Assembly (NCBI RefSeq): GCF_003318165.1
Contig: NZ_QOCB01000070.1
Location: forward strand, 1 to 33,620
Length of the DNA stretch: 33,620 bases
DNA from: Psychromonas sp. B3M02
GTDB taxonomy: Bacteria > Pseudomonadota > Gammaproteobacteria > Enterobacterales > Psychromonadaceae
Direction of reading: 5' to 3'
The notes beneath the pieces are model-generated. The model was not told the DNA's origin. It did not search any database and saw only the letters and a list, made by a program, of their open reading frames with translations. Made by a program: the position numbers and the translations under genes. Below, piece by piece: positions 5,481-30,873 of this stretch. Position 1 is the stretch's first letter. The number at the start of each line of letters is the position of its first letter.

Positions 5481-6776
5481 TTACTTAAGCAATAAATCGC
5501 AAATAGTTTGTACGCCATGACCTTTACCACCAGCAGCCCAAAGACCATTAGCAGATAATTGGTAACTGCCAGATAAATCAAAGTGCAGCCAGTTTTGCTC
5601 TGGATGTTTCACAAATTTAGCTAAAAAGGCTGCCGCTGTAGATGCCCCAGCCATGCTCTCACCACCACTGTGAATATTCGCAATATCAGCAAATGACGAA
5701 CCAATCTGTTGAAGATGGAAAGACTCTAATGGTAAACGCCATAGTTTTTCGTTGGTCTCTTTTGCTGACGCTAACGCTGCTTCCACAAATTCATCATCCA
5801 TGCTTAACACACAGTTGTAATCACGACCCACGGCAACTTTCGCAGCACCTGTTAATGTTGCTGCATCAATAATGCGCTGTGCTTCATCTTCTTGCGCTGC
5901 AATTAAACCATCGGCTAACACTAAACGCCCTTCCGCATCAGTATTTAATACTTCAACAGTCACTCCGTTTTTATAGGTAATGACATCACCTAATTTGAAA
6001 GCTTTATCACTGATCATATTTTCTGCACAACACAGGTATAACTTAACACGCTTTTGTAAGCCATTAGCAATTGCTAAGGCTAATGCACCCGTTACTGTCG
6101 CTGCGCCGCCCATATCACTTTTCATCGCAGCCATTGACGCACTTGGCTTCAAGCTATAACCACCCGAGTCGAAGGTAATACCTTTGCCGACTAAAGCAAT
6201 CTCAATCGGTGCGTCACTATCACCCGTTGGATTATAGTCAACTTGCAGCATACAAGGTGCATGAATACTACCCTTACCCACATTATGAATACCCACAAAA
6301 CCATGCTCAAGTAACGCTTCCCCAGCGATCTCATTGGTTGTGATCCAGCTTTTATCAGGACATATATCAGTTAACAAGGTCGCCGCTTTTTCACTTAACA
6401 CTGTTGGAGCAAGTGCATCTGGTCCTAAGTTAATGGTTTCTCTCACCCATTCGCTGATACGCTTTTTATTGTGTAGTGTGGTCATTGATTCTTCATCTAA
6501 TTCCGGGAACGTCACCGTTGCACCGCTTTTAGCGTTATAAAAACCTTGACTGAAAGCCCAACATAAATCTGAGTTCCACTGTTCACCAACCAGTTCAATA
6601 CTAGGTAACGACATTCCATCTAGCTTACGTGCAGCACTTTGTACCTGTGATAAAACATCATTAACATAGTTGATATGGATGGTCGCTTGTTGCTGATCAA
6701 AAGATAATAACGCATGCTCACCCCATACTGGGCTGGCTTTTTGATCCGATAGATTAACTAAAAATGGCTGGCTCAT
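5481..6776 (-). CDS. pepB: Peptidase B (M17 leucyl aminopeptidase family)
   Basis: 431-aa cytosolic M17 aminopeptidase, close to the 427 aa of E. coli PepB. The two-metal active site is visible: GKGITFDSGGYS with the metal-binding Lys/Asp (about 193-204), MKSDMGGAA (about 214-222) and the family signature NTDAEGRLVLADGL (about 275-288). It removes N-terminal residues from peptides. The start ATG at 6776 is preceded by AGGAA. In enterobacteria pepB closes the isc operon after iscX; here it follows iscS on the same strand with 223 bp and a strong hairpin between, and it has its own terminator. The intervening isc genes are missing. Confidence 0.95.
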   Translation of the reverse strand: MSQPFLVNLSDQKASPVWGEHALLSFDQQQATIHINYVNDVLSQVQSAARKLDGMSLPSIELVGEQWNSDLCWAFSQGFYNAKSGATVTFPELDEESMTTLHNKKRISEWVRETINLGPDALAPTVLSEKAATLLTDICPDKSWITTNEIAGEALLEHGFVGIHNVGKGSIHAPCMLQVDYNPTGDSDAPIEIALVGKGITFDSGGYSLKPSASMAAMKSDMGGAATVTGALALAIANGLQKRVKLYLCCAENMISDKAFKLGDVITYKNGVTVEVLNTDAEGRLVLADGLIAAQEDEAQRIIDAATLTGAAKVAVGRDYNCVLSMDDEFVEAALASAKETNEKLWRLPLESFHLQQIGSSFADIANIHSGGESMAGASTAAAFLAKFVKHPEQNWLHFDLSGSYQLSANGLWAAGGKGHGVQTICDLLLK

Positions 6777-6905
6777 AATATTCCTAGATTGAAAGTGATT
6801 TACACTTATATTAACTGCCTCATTGCTTTTTTAGCAAAGGAAATTGTATTAAAAAAGAAATTACAATGGGATTAATAAAGAGATGGAGTTTAATTTTAGA
6901 AAATA

Positions 6906-6949
6906 GTCTTGTAACGTGATAACCATGGTAGAACATCACGCTACAAGAC
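6906..6949 (-). terminator. Long hairpin between iscS and pepB
   Basis: Arms 6906-6920 (GTCTTGTAACGTGAT) and 6935-6949 (ATCACGCTACAAGAC) pair over 15 positions with one mismatch, around a 14-nt loop. On the minus strand a moderately U-rich stretch (TATTTTC) follows. It probably ends or attenuates the iscRS transcript before pepB, and it occupies the place where iscU would be expected. No fragment of iscU, iscA, hscBA, fdx or iscX is recognisable in 6777-6999. Confidence 0.7.
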
Positions 6950-6999
6950 ACTGATAATTGAATCGTTATGTCAACGACAACCGATCCATTAACAATAGG

Positions 7000-8193
7000 T
7001 TATAGGCTTTTAGCACCTTGCTTAAAGCTTTCCCATAAAGGAGACATATCACGTAAACGGCCTACGTTTTCACGAATAACTTTAATGGCATAATCTATTT
7101 CGGCTTCCGTGGTGAAACGGCCAATACTAAAACGGATAGAACTATGTGCTAGCTCGTCTTCACGTCCGATTGCACGTAATACGTATGAAGATTCAAGGCT
7201 TGCAGAGGTACACGCACTGCCAGAAGACACCGCTAAATCTTTTAATGCCATCACTAATGACTCACCTTCAACATAGTTGAAGCTGATATTAATATTGCCT
7301 GCTACACGATTGTCTAATGAACCATTAATGTAGATCTCTTGCATACTCTTAACACCCTCTAATAGGCGTTGACGTAATGCTAAAATACGTTGATTTTCAC
7401 TTTCCATCTCTTCTTTTGCAATACGGAAAGCTTCACCCATTGCGACAATTTGATGTGTTGGTAATGTGCCACTACGCATACCACGCTCATGACCACCACC
7501 ATGCATTTGTTCCTCTAAACGAATGCGTGGTTTACGGCTAACGTATAATGCACCAATGCCTTTAGGGCCATAGGCTTTATGTGCAGAGAAAGAGATAAGA
7601 TCCACCTTCATCGCTTGTACATCTATCTCAACCTTACCCGCACTTTGCGCCGCATCTACATGTAACACTGTGTTATTAGCGCGGCATAATTCACCAAATG
7701 CAGCGATATCTTGAATAACCCCAATTTCATTATTCACATGCATTAGGCTCACTAAAATAGTGTCTTCACGCATTGCTTGCTGTAGTTGTTTTGGAGTAAT
7801 AATACCGTCTTCTGGTGGTGTTAAATAAGTCACTTCAAAGCCTTCATGCTCTAATTGGCGACAGGTATCTAATACCGCTTTATGCTCTGTTTTAGCCGTA
7901 ATAATGTGTTTACCTTTATTTTGATAAAAGTGCGCGGCACCTTTAATCGCAAGATTATCTGATTCAGTTGCACCAGAAGTAAACACAATTTCACGTGAAT
8001 CAGCGTTAATTAATTCAGCCACTTGTTCGCGTGCGATATCAACGGCTTCTTCAGCTTGCCAACCAAAACGATGTGAACGCGAGGCTGGGTTACCGAAGTC
8101 ACCATCCACTGATAAGTATTTAACCATTATGTCAACAACGCGCTGATCAACGGGGGTCGTTGCTGAATAATCAAGGTAAATTGGTAGTTTCAT
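7000..8193 (-). CDS. iscS: Cysteine desulfurase IscS
   Basis: 397-aa PLP enzyme that releases sulfur from cysteine as an enzyme persulfide for Fe-S assembly, tRNA thiolation and thiamine synthesis. PLP lysine in [12 protein letters not shown] (about 206) and the catalytic loop cysteine in [11 protein letters not shown] at about 328, both at the E. coli IscS positions. Start ATG with GGAG upstream; the gene begins 16 bp after the iscR stop. After SPLWE the protein ends with SFKQGAKSL, about seven residues shorter than E. coli IscS (404 aa), whose C-terminus helps bind the scaffold IscU. iscU does not follow. The desulfurase itself looks intact; which sulfur acceptor it serves here is open. Confidence 0.97.
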
Positions 8194-8209
8194 TTTTTCT
8201 CCACTGCTG

Positions 8210-8686
8210 TTATTTGGCTATAATATTCAGCAGTTCACTATTGATAAACTTATTATTTTGTTGCTCAGAGACATTTTGCACATGCTCACTTGCCATTAAC
8301 TCTTGTAATGTAATTCCGTCCAGAAAAGAGCTAATACGCATACTTAATTGCTCCCATAAAGCGTGCGTTAAACACTCCACACCATCTTCTTGGCAGCCAC
8401 CTTTACCAGCACATTTACGCACATCAACACTTTCATTGACCGCGTCAATGATCATGGACACTGATATTTCTGATTTACTTTTGCCTAATTTATAGCCCCC
8501 ACCAGGGCCTCGGACACTACTAACTAACTGCTTTTGTCTGAGTTTAGAGAATAATTGCTCTAAATATGAAAGTGAAATTCCTTGGCGCTCTGAAATGTCA
8601 GCGAGTGGCACGGGTCCTGTATGCTCTTTTATTGCAACGTCTAACATTGCAGTGACCGCATAACGGCCTTTGGAAGTTAATTTCAT
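8210..8686 (-). CDS. iscR: Rrf2-family Fe-S cluster regulator IscR
   Basis: 158-aa transcription factor with an N-terminal winged helix (recognition region about 28-60, [20 protein letters not shown]) and the 2Fe-2S ligand set C92, C98, C105 and H108 in [18 protein letters not shown]. One extra residue lies before the third cysteine compared with E. coli (C92, C98, C104, H107). With its cluster, IscR represses the isc promoter through type-1 sites; cluster-free it can act on type-2 sites. A near-consensus type-1 site overlaps its own promoter at 8759-8783, so autoregulation is predicted. The Shine-Dalgarno sequence is weak. First gene of the iscR-iscS unit. Confidence 0.96.
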
Positions 8687-8751: not shown

Positions 8752-8779
8752 AGTATAAATACCCGACAGTTTTAGTCAA
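8752..8779 (-). promoter_or_regulatory. Sigma70 promoter of iscR-iscS
   Basis: On the minus strand, TTGACT (8774-8779) and TATACT (8752-8757) are separated by 16 bp, each one base from consensus. The start site would fall around 8744, leaving a leader of about 55-60 nt before the iscR ATG. The -35 hexamer lies inside the IscR operator, as expected for repression. Confidence 0.82.
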
Positions 8780-8783
8780 GTAT
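8759..8783 (-). promoter_or_regulatory. IscR type-1 operator
   Basis: The minus strand reads ATACTTGACT-AAAAC-TGTCGGGTAT. Against the 25-bp type-1 consensus ATASYYGACTRWWWYAGTCRRSTAT it matches at 24 positions, differing only by T for A in the right half (YAGTC). It covers the -35 hexamer of the iscR promoter. This is the classical autoregulatory arrangement and shows that Fe-S-dependent control has been kept although most of the operon has gone. Confidence 0.9.
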
Positions 8784-8806: not shown

Positions 8807-9565
8807 TTATTTTTTGCTATCGTTTTTGTTATTTCTTGGATTTTCTTCAAGACTTTCTACCGACTTTTGCATGCTACTAAAAATACCACGTAACATTTTT
8901 AACTCATTAATTTCAGGTCTTGCTCTATTAAATAGACGACGTAATTTATCCATTACTAAACCAGGATGAGCTGGCACAATAAAGCCAATTTGGAATAAGG
9001 TTTTTTGAAGATGTTCAAGCATACCTTCAAATTCAGAAGCTCGAGGGTACTCTTCCACTACTTCAGGAAAAGATTCAGAAGCTAAATAAGCCATACGCAC
9101 TTCATAGCTTAATGTTTGTACTGCCATCGCAAGATTCAATGAACTATAGTCAGGGTTTGCTGGAATAAACACGTGGAAATGACACTTTTGAAGTTCATCA
9201 TTAGTTAACCCACTGTTTTCACGACCAAATACTAATGCTACTTTATGTTTTTTACCTTCTGCAGCTGCTTTTTCACCCATTTCTCTAGGGTCAAGCATAG
9301 GCCAGTTAAGGGTTCTAGGGCGAGCACTTGCTCCAACCACTAAACCACAATCAGCAATCCCTTCATCGAGTGTTTTATATACTTTATGATTTTTAAGTAC
9401 ATCACTTGCACCTGCAGAAAGGGCAACAGACTTACCATCCACTTCACATTCAGGGTCAATCAACACCAAATCGGTCAAACCCATCGTTTTCATAGCTCGA
9501 GCAGCACTGCCAATATTGCCTGGGTGAGAGGTACCAATTAATATAATACGCACATTGTCTAGCAT
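8807..9565 (-). CDS. trmJ: tRNA (cytidine/uridine-2'-O-)-methyltransferase TrmJ
   Basis: 252-aa SPOUT methyltransferase that 2'-O-methylates position 32 of certain tRNAs. N-terminal [20 protein letters not shown] and the knot motifs [16 protein letters not shown] and [17 protein letters not shown] are typical of TrmJ. I start it at ATG 9565 (AAAGGA upstream, aligned with the E. coli N-terminus); an in-frame start at 9604 would add 13 charged residues of no family character. It lies upstream of iscR on the same strand and divergent from suhB, as in enterobacteria. The C-terminal tail is Asn/Lys/Ser-rich. Confidence 0.95.
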
Positions 9566-9699
9566 TGTTTTTCCTTTGTGATCCTGTGATTTTTTTGAGC
9601 GCAAAGTTTAGCACTATTCAATTAACAACTAAACTAGTGCAAAGGTGCATTTATCATATAATGCTTAATAAACAGGCTAAATTTTGAACAATTAAATTA

Positions 9700-9780: not shown

Positions 9781-10569
9781 ATGCATCCAATGTTAAATAT
9801 TGCGATTCGTGCTGCGCGTAATGCGGGTAAAGTAATTGTTAAAGGTTATGAAAATTTAGAGTCAGTTGAAGTGGAAGAAAAATCCCTTAATGACTATGTA
9901 AGCAGCGTAGATAAAGAAGCTGAATTAGCAATTATTGGTACGTTACGTAAATCTTACCCAGACCACAGCTTTGTTGCTGAAGAGTCAGGTATCGATAATG
10001 GTAAAGATACAGATCACCAATGGATTATCGACCCACTAGATGGGACAACAAACTTCATTCGCGGCATACCTCACTTTGCTGTATCAATTGCATTAAAAAT
10101 TAAAGGCCGTACTGAAGTCGGTATCGTATTCGATCCTATCCGCAATGAATTATTCTCTGCTGTTCGTGGTCAAAGCGCTCAAATCAACGGTTACCGTACT
10201 CGTACAAGTTCAGTGCCTAAACTAACTGGTACATTATTAGCGACTGGTTTCCCGTTTAAGCAAAAATACAACCTTGAAGCTTACTTAAACATCTTCCAAG
10301 ATTTCTTTAACGATGTTGCTGATATGCGTCGCGGCGGTAGTGCAGCCCTTGACCTAGCTTACGTTGCAGCAGGCCGTATGGACGGTTTCTGGGAATTTGG
10401 TCTAAAACCATGGGATATTGCAGCAGGCGAATTATTGTTAAAAGAATCTGGTGCCATGATGACTGATTTTAACGGTGGTAATGATTACTTCAAATCTGGT
10501 GATGTTGTTGCCGCTAACCCGAAACTATTAAAAGAGATGTTAACCGTTATTCGTAAGCACAATGCTTAA
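9781..10569 (+). CDS. suhB: Inositol-1-monophosphatase family protein SuhB
   Basis: 262-aa cytosolic Mg-dependent phosphatase of the inositol monophosphatase family (E. coli SuhB is 267 aa). Metal-binding residues are visible: E67/E68 in AEESG, DPLDGTTNF at 84-92 and WDIAAGELLLKESGA near 212-226. In E. coli SuhB also associates with NusA/NusB/NusE/NusG in rRNA antitermination complexes; the same role here is inferred from orthology. Divergent from trmJ, the conserved gammaproteobacterial arrangement. Ends at a clear terminator. Confidence 0.96.
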   Translation: MHPMLNIAIRAARNAGKVIVKGYENLESVEVEEKSLNDYVSSVDKEAELAIIGTLRKSYPDHSFVAEESGIDNGKDTDHQWIIDPLDGTTNFIRGIPHFAVSIALKIKGRTEVGIVFDPIRNELFSAVRGQSAQINGYRTRTSSVPKLTGTLLATGFPFKQKYNLEAYLNIFQDFFNDVADMRRGGSAALDLAYVAAGRMDGFWEFGLKPWDIAAGELLLKESGAMMTDFNGGNDYFKSGDVVAANPKLLKEMLTVIRKHNA

Positions 10570-22260: not shown

Positions 22261-22264
22261 AATG

Positions 22265-23155
22265 ATGGCCAATAACAACCTTAAAACTCAAATAGCAGAT
22301 TCAATGACAACCTCTTCAGCTCAGGCGGAGGTGCCGATCGTATTGACCATCGCAGGTTCCGATAGTGGCGGTGGTGCAGGTATTCAAGCGGATATTAAGG
22401 CTATTTCAGCCACAGGCAGTTATGCTTGCTCAGCAATTACCGCGATCACAGCCCAAAATACCTTAGGTGTTTCTGGTATTTTCCCCATTCCACTAGAGCA
22501 TGTTGAAAAGCAATTAGACGCCGTTTTCAGTGATTTAAATATCGTGGCGGTAAAAGTAGGTATGCTAGCTGATAGTGATATTATCAGCTTGGTGACCAAA
22601 AAATTAAAACAATACCAGCCTCAATTTATCGTCATTGACCCGGTAATGGTCACCACCAATGGTGACTTATTATTAGAAAAATCAGCCATCCAAACATTAA
22701 AATCTGAGCTGTTCCCTTTAGCAAATATTATTACTCCAAACCTACCTGAAGCCGCGGCATTAATCGGCGACAGTACATCACAGAACCTTCCTGAAACAAC
22801 CCAACAAATGCAGTCGATGGTCAAAGGGTTACGTCAATTAGGAGCTAAAGCCGTGTTATTGAAAGGGGGATATTTACAACAAGATAAGCACAGTACCGAT
22901 CTGTTAATTTTATCTCATGTTATTCAAGAGTTAACAGCTGATCGAGTTTACACCAATAATAACCATGGGACAGGTTGTACACTTTCTTCGGCTATTGCTT
23001 CCTATTTAGCACAAGGTTATCTATTGGCAGAGGCAGTACAAGCAGCAAAAAATTATATTACGCACGCGTTAATGCATGCTGACCAACTCACTATCGGTAA
23101 AGGACGAGGCCCGGTACATCACTTTTACCAACAACACAACGACAGTGATTGCTAA
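22265..23155 (+). CDS. thiD: Hydroxymethylpyrimidine / phosphomethylpyrimidine kinase ThiD
   Basis: 296-aa ribokinase-fold enzyme converting HMP to HMP-P and HMP-PP for thiamine synthesis, cytoplasmic. Signature TIAGSDSGGGAGIQADIK (about 29-46), substrate region SAITAITAQNT, VMVTTNGD, and the anion-hole/base motif NNHGTGCTLSSAIASYLA (about 238-255). About 25 residues precede the usual N-terminus. Two consecutive ATGs (22262, 22265) are available; the second is five bases from GGAG and is preferred. First gene of the operon, controlled by the TPP riboswitch. No ThiE fusion is present, since thiE is separate downstream. Confidence 0.95.
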   Translation: MANNNLKTQIADSMTTSSAQAEVPIVLTIAGSDSGGGAGIQADIKAISATGSYACSAITAITAQNTLGVSGIFPIPLEHVEKQLDAVFSDLNIVAVKVGMLADSDIISLVTKKLKQYQPQFIVIDPVMVTTNGDLLLEKSAIQTLKSELFPLANIITPNLPEAAALIGDSTSQNLPETTQQMQSMVKGLRQLGAKAVLLKGGYLQQDKHSTDLLILSHVIQELTADRVYTNNNHGTGCTLSSAIASYLAQGYLLAEAVQAAKNYITHALMHADQLTIGKGRGPVHHFYQQHNDSDC

Positions 23156-23156
23156 C

Positions 23157-23948
23157 ATGGCCTTAACCATTACAAAAACAAAGATGCTACATTCACCAGC
23201 CATTACTATTGAACAAGGCGTTATACGCTATCAACAAGATACTCAACCTGTATTATCTGGGCTGGACATGCAGATGCCTGCACAAGGATGGAGCTGTATT
23301 TTAGGTCGCAGTGGTTGTGGCAAAACGACCCTATTACGATACCTTGCGAATTTACTAACGGACAAGGTGCAGTGGTCTGGCGAGTTATCTACTAGCAATC
23401 AAATAGCACTTAAAGAGCAAGTCGCTTATATGGCTCAACAAGACTTATTAATGCCTTGGTTAAACGTATTAGATAATGTATTACTTAGCGAAAAGTTTAC
23501 CCCCAAAACACCATCTTCCCCTTCAAAAACACAGCAATATCATAAAGCATTAACATTGTTAGCTGAGGTCGGCTTAGCTGATAAGGTCCAAGCATTACCA
23601 CAAAATTTATCAGGGGGAATGCGCCAACGTGTCGCCTTAGCCAGAACCTTGATGCAAGATAAACCTGTAGTATTAATGGATGAACCCTTCTCGGCTTTAG
23701 ATGCAGTAACGCGCTATAAACTACAAAACCTAGCACACCAATTATTAAAAGATAAAACGGTTTTATTAATCACTCATGACCCATTAGAGGCCGTTCGCTT
23801 AGCTGACCAATTATATATCTTGCATGGAAAGCCCGCCTTTGCGAGTGCACTTTCATTGCCAAATTCCGCCCCTCCCAGAGCATTGAATGCAGAAAGTGCG
23901 ATATTACAGCAACAAATTATTCAACAATTAGAGCAAGATTATGAATAA
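23157..23948 (+). CDS. thiZ: ABC transporter ATPase of the pyrimidine-precursor uptake system (ThiZ)
   Basis: 263-aa ABC ATPase of the nitrate/sulfonate/taurine-like group: Walker A GRSGCGKTT (about 51-59), Q-loop AYMAQQDLLMP, signature LSGGMRQRVALARTL, Walker B VVLMDEPFSALD and H-loop ITHDPLEA. It energises import of a pyrimidine precursor (HMP or a formylaminopyrimidine) with ThiX and ThiY. The ATG at 23157 lies one base after the thiD stop, so translation is probably coupled; no Shine-Dalgarno stands out. An open frame reaching back to 23076 would overlap thiD and is unlikely. The function is assigned from operon context as much as from sequence. Confidence 0.9.
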   Translation: MALTITKTKMLHSPAITIEQGVIRYQQDTQPVLSGLDMQMPAQGWSCILGRSGCGKTTLLRYLANLLTDKVQWSGELSTSNQIALKEQVAYMAQQDLLMPWLNVLDNVLLSEKFTPKTPSSPSKTQQYHKALTLLAEVGLADKVQALPQNLSGGMRQRVALARTLMQDKPVVLMDEPFSALDAVTRYKLQNLAHQLLKDKTVLLITHDPLEAVRLADQLYILHGKPAFASALSLPNSAPPRALNAESAILQQQIIQQLEQDYE

Positions 23949-24738
23949 ATTTCCTAATATTAACGTCTTAACTCAGCGTATTAACAACCCTGAAAAAGTG
24001 TTGCAAAACAGCCTACGAATAATATTCACGTTATTGATGCTTTTGGTGTTTTGGCAAGCCAGTGTATTAATATTTAAGTTACCTAGTTTTATTTTACCAG
24101 AGCCTTTATCGGTATTTGAACGTTTAATAAGTCGTCTCGACATTTTACTTAAGCATAGCTGGGTAACAACACAAGAGATTGTTTTAGGTCTATTGTTAGG
24201 CTTATCCATGGGACTATTTTTTGCCTTACAGATGCTCCTATTTAAACCGGTAAGACGTTGGTTACTGCCCATTTTGATCGCCAGTCAAGCTATTCCCGTA
24301 TTTGCTATCGCCCCTATTTTGATGATCTGGTTAGGTTACGGTATTGCCTCAAAAATAGTGATGGCGGCGATTATTATTTTCTTCCCTGTAGTGACCTGTT
24401 GTTACGACGGGTTAAAGAACACACCTACTGGCTATCTCGACTTAGCCAAGACAATGCAAGCCACTAAATGGCAACTATTACGCCATATTCAATTACCAGC
24501 CTCTTTACCTACACTCGCTTCAGGGATACGTGTCGCTGTGGTGATAGCGCCTATTGGTGCAGTTGCTGGCGAATGGGTTGGGTCAAGTCAAGGCTTGGGA
24601 TATTTGATGTTACAAGCCAACGCCCGCATGTTAATTGATGAAATGTTTGCCGCGCTATTTATCTTATCGGCTATTTCCGTTGGGCTTTATTTCATCACGG
24701 ACAAACTTTTAAACAAATTAATACCCTGGCAACTTTAG
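23941..24738 (+). CDS. thiX: ABC transporter permease of the pyrimidine-precursor uptake system (ThiX)
   Basis: 265-aa inner-membrane permease of the SsuC/TauC (BPD_transp_1) type with about six membrane segments. The EAA-type cytoplasmic loop is visible around residues 150-185 (LDLAKTMQATKWQLLRHIQLPASLP), typical of ABC importers. It overlaps the thiZ end by eight bases, showing translational coupling. Specificity is inferred from position between thiZ and thiY under a TPP riboswitch. Confidence 0.92.
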   Translation: MNKFPNINVLTQRINNPEKVLQNSLRIIFTLLMLLVFWQASVLIFKLPSFILPEPLSVFERLISRLDILLKHSWVTTQEIVLGLLLGLSMGLFFALQMLLFKPVRRWLLPILIASQAIPVFAIAPILMIWLGYGIASKIVMAAIIIFFPVVTCCYDGLKNTPTGYLDLAKTMQATKWQLLRHIQLPASLPTLASGIRVAVVIAPIGAVAGEWVGSSQGLGYLMLQANARMLIDEMFAALFILSAISVGLYFITDKLLNKLIPWQL

Positions 24739-24801
24739 TTATTTACACACAACACTGTCCATTGAATGGACTAATATTGGAATAATAAGGAAATACCTGC
24801 A

Positions 24802-25752
24802 ATGAAAAAGCACTTTTTACTGACATCACTGACATTACTTTTCACTCTGTTTACACAGTCGACAATGGCACAGGAAAAGAAAGTCACCTTGATGTTAGAT
24901 TGGTTTGTTAACCCAAACCATGGCCCAATTGTGATAGCACAACAACGAGGCTACTTTAAGCAACAAGGTTTAAGCATTGATATTCAAGAGCCAGCCGATC
25001 CAAGTCTTCCTCCTAAACTAGTGGCGGCAGGTAACCTAGATTTAGCAATAACCTACCAACCAAACCTAATTATTGATGTCGCAGAAGGGCTGCCGTTAGT
25101 ACGTTCTGCAACCCTCATTGCCACACCATTAAATACCTTAATGGTATTGGATAACGGCAAAATTAATAACCTAAGTGACTTAAAAGATAAAAAAGTCGGT
25201 ATTGCTATCTCAGGTAGTGAAGAAGCGATTATCGGCAAAATGTTAGAGACAGTAAATCTAACTTATAATGATGTTGAAATCATTAATGTGGGTTGGGCTT
25301 TATCTGCTTCTTTAGCATCAGGCAAAGTGGATGCCATTTGGGGTGGATTACGTAACTTTGAAAGTAACCAATTAGCTTTAGAAGGTTTTGAATCAAAAGC
25401 TTACTTCCCTGAAGAGCACGGCGTACCTGCTTATGATGAATTAATCTTTGTTGCCAATGCTAACAACTATGATGCAGCGATGATCAAAGCCTTTAACAAA
25501 GCCTTAGAACAAGCCACTATTTACATCACTAATCACCCTCAAGCGGCCTGGAAAGAGTTTGTTAGTTATGCACCAGATACCTTAGACAATGAGCTTAATA
25601 AACGCGCTTGGAAAGATACTCTGTCACGCTTTGCACTGCGCCCTTCAGCAGTCGATTTAACACGTTACGACGATTACGCTCAGTTTATGTTTGACAATAA
25701 ACTGATTAAAAAACTACCACAGGCAAAAGACTACATGCCAAGCTTCAAATAA
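24802..25752 (+). CDS. thiY: Periplasmic pyrimidine-precursor binding protein ThiY (NMT1/THI5-like)
   Basis: 316-aa binding protein with signal peptide MKKHFLLTSLTLLFTLFTQSTMA (about 23 residues). The mature start VTLMLDWFVNPNHGPIVIAQ and RGYFKQQGLSIDIQEP are characteristic of the NMT1/THI5-like family; the fungal homologue makes HMP, but bacterial ThiY is a transport receptor for pyrimidine precursors. No cysteine cluster like that of fungal THI5 is present, which agrees with a binding role. Strong ribosome-binding site (AAGGAA), 63 bp after thiX. Together with thiZ and thiX it completes the importer. Confidence 0.93.
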   Translation: MKKHFLLTSLTLLFTLFTQSTMAQEKKVTLMLDWFVNPNHGPIVIAQQRGYFKQQGLSIDIQEPADPSLPPKLVAAGNLDLAITYQPNLIIDVAEGLPLVRSATLIATPLNTLMVLDNGKINNLSDLKDKKVGIAISGSEEAIIGKMLETVNLTYNDVEIINVGWALSASLASGKVDAIWGGLRNFESNQLALEGFESKAYFPEEHGVPAYDELIFVANANNYDAAMIKAFNKALEQATIYITNHPQAAWKEFVSYAPDTLDNELNKRAWKDTLSRFALRPSAVDLTRYDDYAQFMFDNKLIKKLPQAKDYMPSFK

Positions 25753-25787
25753 TATAGTGATTAGCCTACTGATTAAGCGAGATAACC

Positions 25788-26465
25788 ATGAATCATCAAG
25801 ATTTAATTAACGCTTGCCAAGCTGATTGGCAAGCCTACACAAAACACCCTTTTGTATTGCAGCTTGGCAATGGCAGCCTAACACAGCCATGCTTTTTACA
25901 TTATTTAAAGCAAGACTTTCTATTTTTAAAACAGTACGCCCGTGCTTATGCTCTCGCCATTTATAAAGCAAATACATTGGCTGATATGCGTAAAGCCTTA
26001 CCGAGTGTGCATGCATTATTGGACTTTGAAATTAATCACCATATTACCTACTGTAAAAACTGGGGATTAAACGAAGCTGATTTAGAAGCAGAAGATGAAG
26101 ATGTGGGCACTGTGGCTTATACACGTTACGTGTTAGATGCTGGGATGACAGGCGATCTCGTAGATTTATATGCAGCGCTTGCGCCTTGCTCTATAGGTTA
26201 TGCTGAAATAGGTCGATTTTTAGCTGAAGACAAAAATACCTTATTTGAAGGCAATGAATTTGCTAGTTGGATCGAACTCTATAGTGGAGAAGAGTTCCAA
26301 CAAAGCATCATTGAAAGCACACAACACCTTGACCAGTTGTTAGCTGATATTGATATCAATAGCCCACGTGGCCAGCAGCTTATTAAAGTGTTCAAAACAG
26401 CCACACGAATGGAAGTGGCTTTTTGGCAACAAGGGTTAGATGCACTCAATCAAGGAGCTAAATAA
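25788..26465 (+). CDS. tenA: TenA-family aminopyrimidine aminohydrolase / thiaminase II
   Basis: 225-aa all-helical TenA protein, full length. Features: [19 protein letters not shown] (about 40-58), [12 protein letters not shown] with the presumed catalytic cysteine near 136, and the C-terminal [10 protein letters not shown] (about 164-173). TenA hydrolyses aminomethyl-HMP to HMP in salvage of degraded thiamine. The partner deformylase YlmB found with it in some bacteria is not in this operon, so the imported substrate may be HMP or an aminopyrimidine directly. 35 bp after thiY; the stop overlaps the thiM start by one base (TAATG). Confidence 0.95.
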
Positions 26466-27271
26466 TGACTACAATCCAAGACAAACAACAATTGATCACA
26501 GAGGCACTACTTAGCTTACGTGAGCAAAAACCACTGGTGGTCAACATCACTAATTATGTGGTAATGAATAATACCGCTAATGCATTACTAGCCATTGGAG
26601 CTTCACCTATAATGGCGCACTCCCGACAAGAGTTAGCGGAAATGATGTCCTTTAGCGGTGCTTTAGTGATTAATATTGGCACCTTAGACAGCCAATGGAT
26701 CCCACGTATGCTATATGCTGTGGAGCAGGCTAATGCCAATAATAAACCTGTGGTATTAGACCCTGTGGGATGTGGTGCGAGTAGCATACGCACAGAGACT
26801 TCACGTCAAATTGCAGAACTCGCCAAGCACCTGATTATTCGTGCTAACGCCTCTGAAATCATCGCTTTAGCCGGAGAGCAAGCGACCAGTAAAGGTGTGG
26901 ATGCGCTAGACAGTAGTGAATCGGCGGTCAATGCAGCACGTTATTTAGTTAAAACTTACCAAGCTAATGTAGTTATTTCTGGGGAAGTGGATTACATCAT
27001 CACAGCACAGTCTGAAATACAGTTATATAACGGGCATGCCATGATGCCATATATTACTGGTATGGGTTGTAGTTTAAGTGCCCTAACCGGTGCCTTTGCT
27101 GCGATTGGTGAAGATACAGGTTTAGCCGCAGCCGCCATTTTAGGTATTGCCGGTGAACTGGCAGAGAAAAAGTCAGCTGGACCAGGCAGTTTGCAAATGA
27201 ATCTCTTAGATTTGCTATACCAAGTTGATTCTGAAATGATTGTTCAACACCTAAAACTGACCATTAATTAA
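26465..27271 (+). CDS. thiM: Hydroxyethylthiazole kinase ThiM
   Basis: 268-aa ribokinase-like enzyme that phosphorylates 4-methyl-5-(2-hydroxyethyl)thiazole, allowing salvage of the thiazole half. N-terminal [20 protein letters not shown], the [14 protein letters not shown] segment and the ATP/catalytic [15 protein letters not shown] (about 198-212) are diagnostic. Coupled to tenA by a 1-bp overlap. Thiazole synthesis genes (thiG, thiS, thiH, thiF) are absent from the operon, marking it as a salvage unit. Confidence 0.96.
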
Positions 27272-27288
27272 ATTATCAAGGAATATAC

Positions 27289-27921
27289 ATGAACCCGTAT
27301 TGTTTATATTTAGTCACTGACGACCAGCAAGATTTAACAACTCTGTTAAAAGTGGTTAAAGAAGCCGTTGCGGGTGGTGTAACCATGGTACAAGTGCGTG
27401 AGAAAGGCGATAATATTCGGTCTTATATTAAGCGCGCTCAAGCCGTGAAAAAGGTATTACAAGGAACTCAAGTCGCACTTGTTATTAATGACCGTGTAGA
27501 TGTCGCTTTAGCCGTTGATGCTGATGGTGTGCACCTTGGACAAACAGATATGCCAGTCCAACTAGCCCGCAAACTAATTGGTCCAAATAAATTATTAGGG
27601 TTATCCATAGAGAATGAGCAACAACTGCTTGAAGCAAATGATTTACCGTTGGACTACATTGGCTTAAGTGCAATTTTTGCAACACCAACCAAAACCAATA
27701 TCAAAAAACAGTGGGGAATACAGGGGCTAATAAAAGCACTACAACTTAGCCAGTTCCCAATTGTTGCTATTGGTGGGATCAATCACACTAATTTAGATTC
27801 AATTATCGAGACAGGTGTGGACGGTGTCGCCTTAGTATCAGCCATTTGTCATGCAGAATCGCCACAACAAGCAGCTGCGGATTTATTAAAGCAGATACAA
27901 GCAGCCACACCTCACCATTAA
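27289..27921 (+). CDS. thiE: Thiamine-phosphate synthase ThiE
   Basis: 210-aa TIM-barrel enzyme joining HMP-PP and thiazole phosphate to thiamine phosphate. Motifs in order: VREKGD (about 37-42), LVINDRVDVALAVDADGVHLGQTDMP (Mg and diphosphate contacts), LSIENEQQLLEA, IGLSAIFATPTKTN and VAIGGIN near the C-terminus. Good ribosome-binding site (AAGGAA). Last gene of the thiamine operon; no strong hairpin terminator is seen in the 112 bp before the LysR gene. Confidence 0.96.
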   Translation: MNPYCLYLVTDDQQDLTTLLKVVKEAVAGGVTMVQVREKGDNIRSYIKRAQAVKKVLQGTQVALVINDRVDVALAVDADGVHLGQTDMPVQLARKLIGPNKLLGLSIENEQQLLEANDLPLDYIGLSAIFATPTKTNIKKQWGIQGLIKALQLSQFPIVAIGGINHTNLDSIIETGVDGVALVSAICHAESPQQAAADLLKQIQAATPHH

Positions 27922-29226: not shown

Positions 29227-30873
29227 TTATTTAGCTTTTTTCATCTCACCTTTATGTTGTAAAAAGTTATTAAATTCAACATTTGTAACTTTACCATCGC
29301 CATTTGCATCTAACATGTCGAATGTAGGACGTTTTTGACCTTTATGCTTCATGATAACTTTTGCATCAATCTCTTGTTGTGTAATTTTACCATCAGCATT
29401 ACTATCTAACTTATCAAAACCTTTTAATAAACGCCCTTTTGCTTCATCTTTAGTGATTGCACCGTCGTTATTTGTATCGAATTTCTCAAAGTTTGCTTTT
29501 GGGTGACCTTTACCTTTATGCATTTTTTTCACTAACTCAAACTCAGCAGAAGTAATTTTACCATCTGAGTCTGTATCAACTTTATCGAAGCCTTTTAGTA
29601 AACGCCCTTTTGCTTCATCTTTAGTGATTGCACCATCGTTATTCGCATCGATTTTATCAAAGCTTGGTTTTTTATGGCCTTTACCTTTGTGCATTTTTGA
29701 GGCTGCTTTTAGCTCTTGCTTAGTAATATCGCCACTGTTGTCTGCATCAATTTTATCAAAGTTATCTGCTAAACGCCCTTTTGCTTCGTCTTTACTGATC
29801 ACACCATCATCATTGCTATCCATTTTCTTAAAGTTAGCTTTTTTATGGGCTTTACCTTTGTGCATATCAAACGCAGCTTTTAACTCTTGTTTAGTAAGGT
29901 CACCACTTTTATCTGCATCGATTTTATCGAAGTTTTCAGCCAAGCGACCTTTTGCTTCGTCTTTGCTGATCACACCATCATCATTGCTATCCATTTTCTT
30001 AAAGTTAGCTTTTTTATGGCCTTGACCTTTGTGCATATCAAACGCAGCTTTTAACTCTTGTTTAGTAAGGTCACCACTTTTATCTGCATCGATTTTATCG
30101 AAGTTTTCAGCCAAGCGACCTTTTGCTTCGTCTTTGCTGATCACACCATCACTGTTGCTATCAATTTTCTCAAAGCTTGGTTTTTTATGACCTCTGCCTT
30201 TACCTTTATGCATCTCTTGAATTTTTGCGAATTCAGCTTCAGAGATTGTACCATCATCATTGCTATCTACTTTATCAAAATGCTTTAACAACATGCCTTT
30301 AGCTTCACTCTTAGAGATAGCTTTATCAGCGTTTGTGTCCACATCAGAGAAGTCTAATTTATGGTTTCCACCTTTACGCATGTTTTCCATTGCGTTGTAT
30401 TCAGTCGTTGATAATGAACCGTTTGCGTCACTATCAATTTTATCAAAGTGCTTCGCTAAACCACCTTTTGCCTCATCTTTAGTGATAGCGCCATCTTTGT
30501 TTGTATCTACTTGTGCAAACTCAGGCTTCTTAGATTGCTTACCTTTATGCATTGGTTTTGCAGCATCAAATTCAGCTTTAGTAATTTCACCATCATTATT
30601 AGTATCAAAATCAGCAAACTTAGGTTGTTTACGATCTTTCTTCATTTGTTTGATGTTCTCAAACTCTGCTTTTGAAATTGAACCGTTTGCATCCGCATCC
30701 ACTTTATCAAAACGCTTAGCTAATTTACCCGTTGCTTCTTCTTGGCTAATTTCACCATTGTTGTTGCTATCAAAACTTGCGAAGTCGTTATTTGCAACTT
30801 TATTCACTGCAGCCATTGTTAGAGAGCTAGAAACGATTAATGCAACACTGCTTAACATAAATAACTTTTTCAT
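29227..30873 (-). CDS. Exported protein with 18 EF-hand calcium-binding loops
   Basis: 548-aa protein with signal peptide MKKLFMLSSVALIVSSSLTMA (about 21 residues), so periplasmic or released. The mature part is a chain of about 18 EF-hand loops of the DxNxDGxIxxxE type (for example FDSNNNGEISQEE near 34, FDTNNDGAITKDE, LDANGDGKVTNVE near the end), arranged in pairs of about 57 residues joined by basic linkers (MHKGKGHKK). One loop, VDTNADKAISKSE, has Lys where Gly is usual. Adjacent pairs are nearly identical in DNA because of a 171-bp tandem duplication. Start ATG with AGAGG. It lies 186 bp downstream of a BaeSR-like pair on the same strand. High-capacity calcium binding is likely; the cellular role is unknown. 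Confidence 0.92.
   Translation of the reverse strand: MKKLFMLSSVALIVSSSLTMAAVNKVANNDFASFDSNNNGEISQEEATGKLAKRFDKVDADANGSISKAEFENIKQMKKDRKQPKFADFDTNNDGEITKAEFDAAKPMHKGKQSKKPEFAQVDTNKDGAITKDEAKGGLAKHFDKIDSDANGSLSTTEYNAMENMRKGGNHKLDFSDVDTNADKAISKSEAKGMLLKHFDKVDSNDDGTISEAEFAKIQEMHKGKGRGHKKPSFEKIDSNSDGVISKDEAKGRLAENFDKIDADKSGDLTKQELKAAFDMHKGQGHKKANFKKMDSNDDGVISKDEAKGRLAENFDKIDADKSGDLTKQELKAAFDMHKGKAHKKANFKKMDSNDDGVISKDEAKGRLADNFDKIDADNSGDITKQELKAASKMHKGKGHKKPSFDKIDANNDGAITKDEAKGRLLKGFDKVDTDSDGKITSAEFELVKKMHKGKGHPKANFEKFDTNNDGAITKDEAKGRLLKGFDKLDSNADGKITQQEIDAKVIMKHKGQKRPTFDMLDANGDGKVTNVEFNNFLQHKGEMKKAK
29861..30160 (-). repeat. 171-bp tandem repeat within the EF-hand gene
   Basis: The stretch beginning TGCATATCAAACGCAGCTTT at 29861 recurs at 30032, an offset of 171 bp (57 codons, two EF-hands). 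The copies stay nearly identical for about 120 bp or more before diverging near 30153. More diverged units of the same length continue on both sides. The repeat stays in frame. Confidence 0.9.

Follow-up and report, generated by a model that had tools for sequence, protein, structure and literature searches.

The isc locus of Psychromonas sp. B3M02 was analysed in a window of 33,620 nucleotides (contig NZ_QOCB01000070.1, positions 1 to 33,620; assembly GCF_003318165.1), in which the genes of the iron-sulfur cluster (ISC) assembly pathway are reduced to iscR and iscS. The window genome (G000) is a draft assembly of 156 contigs and 3.86 Mb, 99.99% complete. Genes at the locus were named by NCBIfam equivalogs on open reading frames (ORFs), and the order trmJ-iscR-iscS-pepB was found contiguous on the minus strand with suhB divergent, as the original prediction had it. 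In 24 of 25 other loci suhB adjoins trmJ as well; in the remaining one (G017) a contig end interrupts the locus. The features of the locus are:

5481..6776, minus strand: pepB, downstream border gene (NF003450, 632.9 bits, cut-off 437)
6777..6999, strand not applicable: scar of 223 bp where iscU-iscA-hscB-hscA-fdx-iscX are missing
6906..6949, minus strand: hairpin in the scar (16 bp, -26.2 kcal/mol, z -6.6)
7000..8193, minus strand: iscS, 397 amino acids (aa) (TIGR02006, 711.3 bits, cut-off 643.2)
7003..7014, minus strand: degenerate and shortened C-terminal tail of IscS past Gly393, with conserved D395, W401 and H403 lost
7846..7848, minus strand: IscS codon 116, His in place of Arg
8210..8686, minus strand: iscR (TIGR02010, 209.3 bits, cut-off 207.55)
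8759..8783, minus strand: IscR type-1-like operator 5' of iscR (1 mismatch to the Escherichia coli consensus, 0 in 100 shuffles)
8807..9604, minus strand: trmJ, upstream border gene (NF011694, 344 bits, cut-off 280)
9781..10569, plus strand: suhB, divergent border gene (NF008027, 391.3 bits)

The 223 bp between iscS and pepB had been described as free of recognisable remnants, and comparison with the intact region of four sister genomes likewise gave no Smith-Waterman score above those of 40 dinucleotide shuffles. IscX had no significant match in the scar, the search for it covering the locus only. Across the whole G000 assembly, IscU (PF01592) and HscB were without a match, the best HscA candidate was DnaK-like and scored 610.2 bits (cut-off 708.55), and the Isc-type [2Fe-2S] ferredoxin reached 25.7 bits in a 421-aa frame only (cut-off 132.1). 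The A-type family was found at three places, namely in a suf operon, in a 116-aa ErpA-like frame and in a 196-aa NfuA-like frame (names by reading and size); the A-type copy inside isc is gone. The hairpin in the scar, predicted as 15 bp, is real and was measured at 16 bp, though it was not among the predictions of a terminator scan; it is possibly the transcript end of iscRS.

For comparison, a set of 41 genomes was used (the window genome, 23 of the genus and 17 of the order). NifU_N/IscU was matched in 38 of them, the three without a match (G000, G018 and G020) belonging to one genus; some of the 38 matches are not IscU (30.6 bits in G039, and only a NifU-size frame in G013, which is 51% complete), so that within the genus 20 genomes carry IscU, 3 lack it and G013 is undecided. 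HscA was over cut-off in 34/41 genomes and the Isc-ferredoxin in 35/41, both being absent from G000, G018 and G020. HscB was searched in six genomes and found in two (G009 and G012), with no match in G000, G018, G020 and G039. The full run trmJ-iscR-iscS-iscU-iscA-hscB-hscA-fdx-iscX-pepB, given as the usual order in the original prediction, was complete in the fetched stretch of 13 of the 20 IscU-bearing genus members. In G010 and G014, fdx and pepB lie 2.7 and 3.1 kb apart, and the 800 bp inspected gave no iscX call; iscX is present in G004 and G011, with no pepB within the fetched stretch; and in G001, G016 and G017 the run is interrupted by contig or stretch ends. Among 80 named loci, iscU was seen within 3 kb downstream of iscS in 77; L089 is too short, and L062 and L095 have no iscU within 3 kb downstream of iscS and no convincing match in the whole locus.

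G018 was found to have the same reduced architecture at this locus, on a 400-kb contig. A reverse-strand ferredoxin match in its scar (E 0.004) was taken as chance. In G020 the iscS-pepB gap is 978 bp, and the decay of the missing genes was seen in place: compared with the intact region of G009, the gap gave a Smith-Waterman score of 480 (maximum of 40 shuffles, 37) and a blastn match of 494 bp at 80% identity (E 4.7e-118), and further pieces aligned where iscU and hscB would lie. In translation, matches to iscU (1.5e-9), hscB (1.8e-4) and iscX (2.4e-12) followed in the correct order, interrupted by stops and frame breaks; the translated comparison of this gap yielded no convincing piece of iscA, hscA or fdx. 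An assembly or binning artefact, by which the middle of isc would be present in the organism and missing from the draft, is hardly conceivable even for an assembly of 156 contigs: the scar lies within a contig with both borders present, G018 repeats it, G020 has a different scar with decayed genes, and in the same three genomes the unlinked cyaY is decayed and IscS itself is altered. A collapsed or missing segment at 6777-6999, for which the original prediction had allowed, did not hold, given the architecture of G018 on its 400-kb contig. Its other proposal, that the genes had moved elsewhere, failed in the searches of the 3.86-Mb assembly; relocated, still working ISC genes would agree with the intact borders, as expected after a move, and are nevertheless extremely improbable, with IscU and HscB unmatched, HscA and the Isc-ferredoxin below cut-off, and the genes of G020 decaying where they stood.

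A tree was calculated from YdiJ, PepB, TrmJ, SuhB, GrpE, DnaK and DnaJ of 27 genomes (3157 columns; YdiJ from 9 genomes). G000 grouped with G018 (100/100); G020 fell together with the ISC-bearing G009 and G019 (100/100). Forcing the three IscU-less genomes into one clade cost 185.6 log-likelihood units (approximately unbiased (AU) test, p 6.6e-61). One ancestral loss for G000, G018 and G020 was ruled out by the tree and the AU test, and ISC was lost twice independently within the genus.

The frataxin CyaY was matched in 34 of the 41 genomes, with no match in G000, G018, G020, G004, G017, G025 and G039. The gene is unlinked to isc and has its place between lppL-lysA and coaD, where it is intact in G012, G009, G019, G003 and G002. 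At this place the gene is in fragments in G020 (E 1e-13), and in G018 only its first 18 codons have left a trace (E 7e-5); in G000 the frame opens, meets an in-frame stop after 14 codons and has suffered a deletion (E 0.004). In a published survey, all CyaY-bearing prokaryotes examined are reported to have IscU too, and no Fe-S biogenesis gene to lie near cyaY (PMC4440780); to this co-occurrence the present genomes add a cyaY that decays in place in IscU-less genomes of two lineages. In a class survey of 187 genomes CyaY was found in 30, 29 of them with an IscU-domain match. G138 carries CyaY without any IscU-domain match, contrary to the usual rule.

SUFBD core proteins were found in 9/41 genomes, G000, G018 and G020 included. 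In G000 two SUFBD matches (265.4 and 224.5 bits) mark the SufB and SufD core of an operon in the order iscR2-sufB-sufC-sufD-sufS-sufA-sufT-sufE, with SufC, SufS and SufE named by reading and cross-blast within the genus and not by a family library. The absence of IscU and HscB, with no HscA or Isc-ferredoxin over cut-off, beside this complete suf operon agrees with the earlier proposal that ISC was lost and that the lineage relies on SUF. The same operon type occurs in G018, G020 and G012; the operon of G006 and G021 is of another type, which includes a SufU-like gene, and that of G011 and G040 is of the sufABCDSE type. G012 carries ISC beside the same kind of SUF operon as G000, and is a living intermediate, or at least proof that ISC and SUF can coexist.

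Among the four carriers of this operon type, the flanking ORFs match only between G000 and G018, bar a distant ABC-ATPase likeness. Synonymous divergence (dS) between G012 and G020 was 0.15-0.75 in seven suf genes and 0.34-1.57 in nine others (iscS and iscR included), with overlapping ranges and iscR2 as an exception at 1.08. Between G000 and G018 the divergence of the suf genes (dS 0.38-0.84) is no lower than that of others (0.13-1.31), which fits vertical descent. Flanks and dS thus point to, without proving, horizontal spread of suf among the lineages. Inheritance of SUF from the genus ancestor was considered and rejected, in view of the three operon types, the unshared flanks and the lower suf dS between G012 and G020 (within overlapping ranges). 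A suf donor was not found; plasmid SufB had at best 75% identity, and plasmid carriage was not shown. In the suf loci of G020 and G012 (L111 and L112), sufB, sufD and sufS have 96-99% protein identity and iscR2 only 81%, as if iscR2 had been exchanged or were under different selection. Beside the suf operon of the window genome (L109, 86-6197), HNH-like, ATPase-like and NERD-like genes, read by eye, resemble a defence or mobile island.

These observations are best explained by loss of the ISC pathway and its replacement by an acquired SUF system, once in the lineage of Psychromonas sp. B3M02 and once, independently, in another lineage of this genus, a reading to which we assign a probability of about 0.86. 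The iscR2-sufBCD-sufS-sufA-sufT-sufE operon would have entered first, by horizontal transfer and with its own IscR paralogue, and the IscR type-1-like sites 5' of suf, like those of native iscR, would have let it join the existing iron-sulfur feedback. With SUF working and, as we infer, making the clusters, the scaffold, the chaperones, the ferredoxin, IscX and the unlinked frataxin may next have become dispensable and decayed, and iscS and iscR would have stayed. IscS would have come to donate sulfur solely to acceptors not supplied by SufS, probably tRNA thiolation through TusA and ThiI, thiazole and molybdopterin; its putative role in tRNA thiolation and thiazole is proposed from retained contact residues. 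The surfaces for IscU, CyaY and IscX would have been released, with the tail cut, R116 replaced and faster evolution under purifying selection.

Several observations pull the other way. The isc scars of G000 and G018 contain no recognisable remnant, so the deletion there is read from synteny. The cyaY trace of G000, with an E of 0.004, is weak and owes its identification to position. IscU-less genomes are not the only ones without frataxin, since G004, with intact ISC, has neither a detectable cyaY nor the adjoining small ORF between lysA and coaD (L168), and G017 has no CyaY match, its lysA not being found either. The presence of ISC and SUF together in G012 means that SUF is not sufficient to cause ISC loss.

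IscS was compared with 24 IscU-bearing reference sequences (20 of the genus, 3 of the order and one of Citrobacter), which share 235 invariant columns; the closest named relatives of the window IscS are Psychromonas (88, 88 and 82% identity). In 23/23 IscU-bearing genomes compared, IscS has 403-404 residues and the conserved tail. The proteins of G000, G018 and G020 have 397, 397 and 400 residues with three different endings, and are changed at 9, 8 and 4 invariant columns, respectively. D395, W401, H403 and R116 are changed in all three; K92N, E285Q and P335S are common to G000 and G018, and I377V and M389S occur in G000 and L386V in G018. At position 116 all three have R116H, which arose in parallel in G020, and all 24 IscU-bearing sequences have Arg. 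Residues 376-404, a region chosen after the clustering was noticed, hold 13 invariant columns, of which 5, 4 and 3 are changed in G000, G018 and G020 (P 2.5e-5, 3.6e-4 and 5.2e-4). In leave-one-out controls, 14/24 IscU-bearing sequences had 0 private changes at invariant columns and ten had 1 to 9, and R116, D395, W401 and H403 were unchanged in all 24. The catalytic residues K206 and C328 are kept in the IscU-less proteins, as are 7/7 TusA-contact residues and 9/10 ThiI-contact residues (the exception being R116); the other listed CyaY and IscX contacts are unchanged.

The ratio of non-synonymous to synonymous rates (omega) over IscS residues 1-390 was 0.049-0.055 in IscU-less pairs (about 0.05 for G000 against G018), and 0.006, 0.009, 0.019 and 0.054 in four IscU-bearing pairs. 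Relative rates were taken as counts of unique changes per lineage pair, iscS being compared with the other genes summed. For iscS the counts were 25:2 (G020:G009), 25:0 (G020:G019), 36:6 (G000:G003) and 33:11 (G018:G003), and for the other genes in the same four pairs 21:27, 27:29, 57:63 and 48:57 (the last two without YdiJ). The IscU-less proteins had 3 to 12 times more unique changes than their relatives; the control pair G009:G019 gave 2:0 for iscS, and one comparison among the other genes was uneven (dnaJ, 11:2, G018 against G002). IscS is apparently retained under purifying selection and working, with part of its constraint released. That IscS is instead no separate donor, and either supplies SUF or persists as a redundant second desulfurase, by chance or through a transcript shared with iscR, is unlikely. 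The head-to-tail arrangement of iscR and iscS behind an IscR-like site fits this alternative, as would faster evolution that marks the start of decay; against it, SufS and SufE are encoded within the suf operon itself, omega is about 0.05 with active-site residues and 7/7 TusA contacts kept, and the IscS of G039, a genome without an IscU-grade match, is still an open frame of 380 aa (63% identity).

That genome, of another family of the order and 91% complete, has a two-gene iscR-iscS followed by a different gene, with suf genes elsewhere (L157). Its IscS lacks the C-terminal helix and tail and has Gln/Ser at 112/116; in G039 only the 30.6-bit IscU-domain match was obtained, with no CyaY and no HscB match. 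In the class survey, in which E values up to 1e-90 counted as IscS-like and those up to 1e-36 as IscU-grade, an IscS-like match was found in 125/187 genomes. Tail and IscU counts were tallied by hand, the non-matching genomes being partly deduced from their absence among the listed ones (7/27 not named there). The match reached residue 402-404 in 90 genomes, 87 of them with an IscU-grade match, and stopped short in 35, one of which had an IscU-grade match (a NifU). Distant IscS subfamilies make up most of these 35 and confound the link, so that the class-wide association of tail and IscU is support and not proof. Three genomes reached the tail without an IscU-grade match: G119 and G215 have a different ending, and G183 is unexplained. 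The locus of G183 (L173) reads iscR-iscS-iscA-hscB-hscA-fdx with the IscS tail intact; iscU is not recognisable there, through real loss or an assembly fault. NifU_N was unmatched in 27/187 genomes, and many more had only weaker, SufU-grade matches. Two genomes of one family differ: G108 (L170) has full ISC and an intact IscS tail, and in G208 (L169) IscS is shortened, an IscU-like protein of 131 aa has diverged strongly and the fetched stretch contains no hscBA.

In E. coli, IscU docks near the IscS C-terminus and deletion of 374/376-404 abolishes or lowers IscU binding, L386R and M389R singly did not stop it, mutation of R116 (R116E; Table 3) lowers binding of CyaY, IscX and ThiI, and TusA docks on W45/E49/D52 (PMC2854127). 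Set beside that protein, evolution has here removed tail 394-404 and R116 and kept the TusA face. In human NFS1 the C-terminus winds around ISCU and frataxin holds it (PMC8199681); this C-terminus is a possible counterpart of the lost tail, the correspondence being presumed across to a eukaryotic complex; because the tail is conserved with IscU and lost without it, the comparison suggests that the bacterial tail may do a similar job. We tentatively propose, and regard as possible though rather less likely than its opposite, that the tail (about 394-404) and R116 form a dock only for the ISC complex (IscU with frataxin/IscX), removed repeatedly once that complex was gone, partly by the same R116H, with IscS turning into a specialised sulfur-relay enzyme. 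R116H and the truncations would then be adaptive, freeing the desulfurase from a regulatory site, and not just decay, and the state of tail and R116 would distinguish ISC-serving from relay-only IscS in proteobacterial genomes.

Against such remodelling of IscS stand a distant IscU-bearing genome (G032) with 9 private changes, equal to G000; a private change within 376-404 (G378E) in the IscU-bearing G017; and an IscU-less omega no higher than that of the control pair G006-G021 (0.054). R116 matters for ThiI too, so its loss is not cleanly ISC-specific, and the E. coli IscS-IscU crystal structure has no model for residues 394-404 (PMC2854127), so that direct contact of the tail with IscU is hypothetical. 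Ordinary drift, unrelated to the loss of IscU and CyaY, is a rather improbable source of the tail loss and R116H. In its favour, the tail columns were chosen post hoc, there are only two independent events in the genus, tail-less IscS is common in distant subfamilies of the class, and the outgroup G032 changed as much with IscU in place. Drift is opposed by the tail kept in 23/23 IscU-bearing relatives and lost with three endings in three IscU-less ones, by the controls with 0 private changes (14/24) and never a change at R116, D395, W401 or H403, by iscS being the gene with the most deviant rate in the IscU-less lineages, and by the hand tally of the class (87/90 tail-reaching genomes with an IscU-grade match against 1/35 others).

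IscR type-1 sites were scored against the E. coli consensus. Sites of this kind were found 5' of iscR at the reduced locus and 5' of iscR2-suf in G000 and G020, with none in shuffles, and similar ones in the relatives inspected; in the window, a promoter-like TTGACT-16-TATACT overlaps the site at 8759..8783. The iscR product falls under the stricter NF008110 cut-off (228.2 against 275 bits) and retains the cluster ligands Cys/Cys/Cys/His. In IscR2 the ligand spacing is as in outgroup IscR, and both regulators may read both sets of sites. Between the second and third of its cluster Cys, IscR of the window and of 22 other genus members is longer by one residue than three outgroup IscR and IscR2.

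Fe-S assembly is essential, and swaps of its machinery are mostly inferred from deep phylogeny. SUF-only bacteria (suf with SufS/SufE or SufU) are known, their state being mostly old and clean, and laboratory E. coli without the isc scaffold genes can live on SUF with IscS kept. As in SUF-only bacteria, iron-sulfur assembly appears to be left to SUF here; unlike there, the change came twice in one genus with ISC-bearing sisters, one of them with both systems, and with wreckage in place, and unlike in laboratory E. coli the replacement is natural and repeated, with frataxin loss and a remodelled IscS. What is new is the twice-repeated replacement of ISC by SUF within one genus, caught mid-decay, SUF-only life being already known. 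Among the matches listed, by titles and the beginnings of abstracts, no report of the present case was recognised in searches on replacement of ISC by SUF, on ISC loss together with frataxin or pseudogenes, and on retention of IscS beside SUF; matches to Psychromonas and iscU concerned, by their titles, frataxin or a genome of another genus. Within this one genus, closely related genomes carry ISC alone, both systems (G012), or SUF alone, with the wreckage still fresh (G020) or the scars clean (G000, G018). The role of the poorly ordered but conserved IscS tail thereby becomes testable, as does a role of frataxin outside ISC; that none of the three IscU-less genomes has kept frataxin argues against an indispensable one here. 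The IscS of the IscU-less genomes looks like a natural separation-of-function allele.

Elsewhere in the window, two further regions were read by eye from ORFs. Positions 22262-27921 hold a thiamin salvage-like cluster (ThiD-like, an ABC transporter for a pyrimidine precursor, TenA-like, ThiM-like and ThiE-like), and positions 29227-30873 encode an apparently secreted 548-aa protein of repeated EF-hand-like units.

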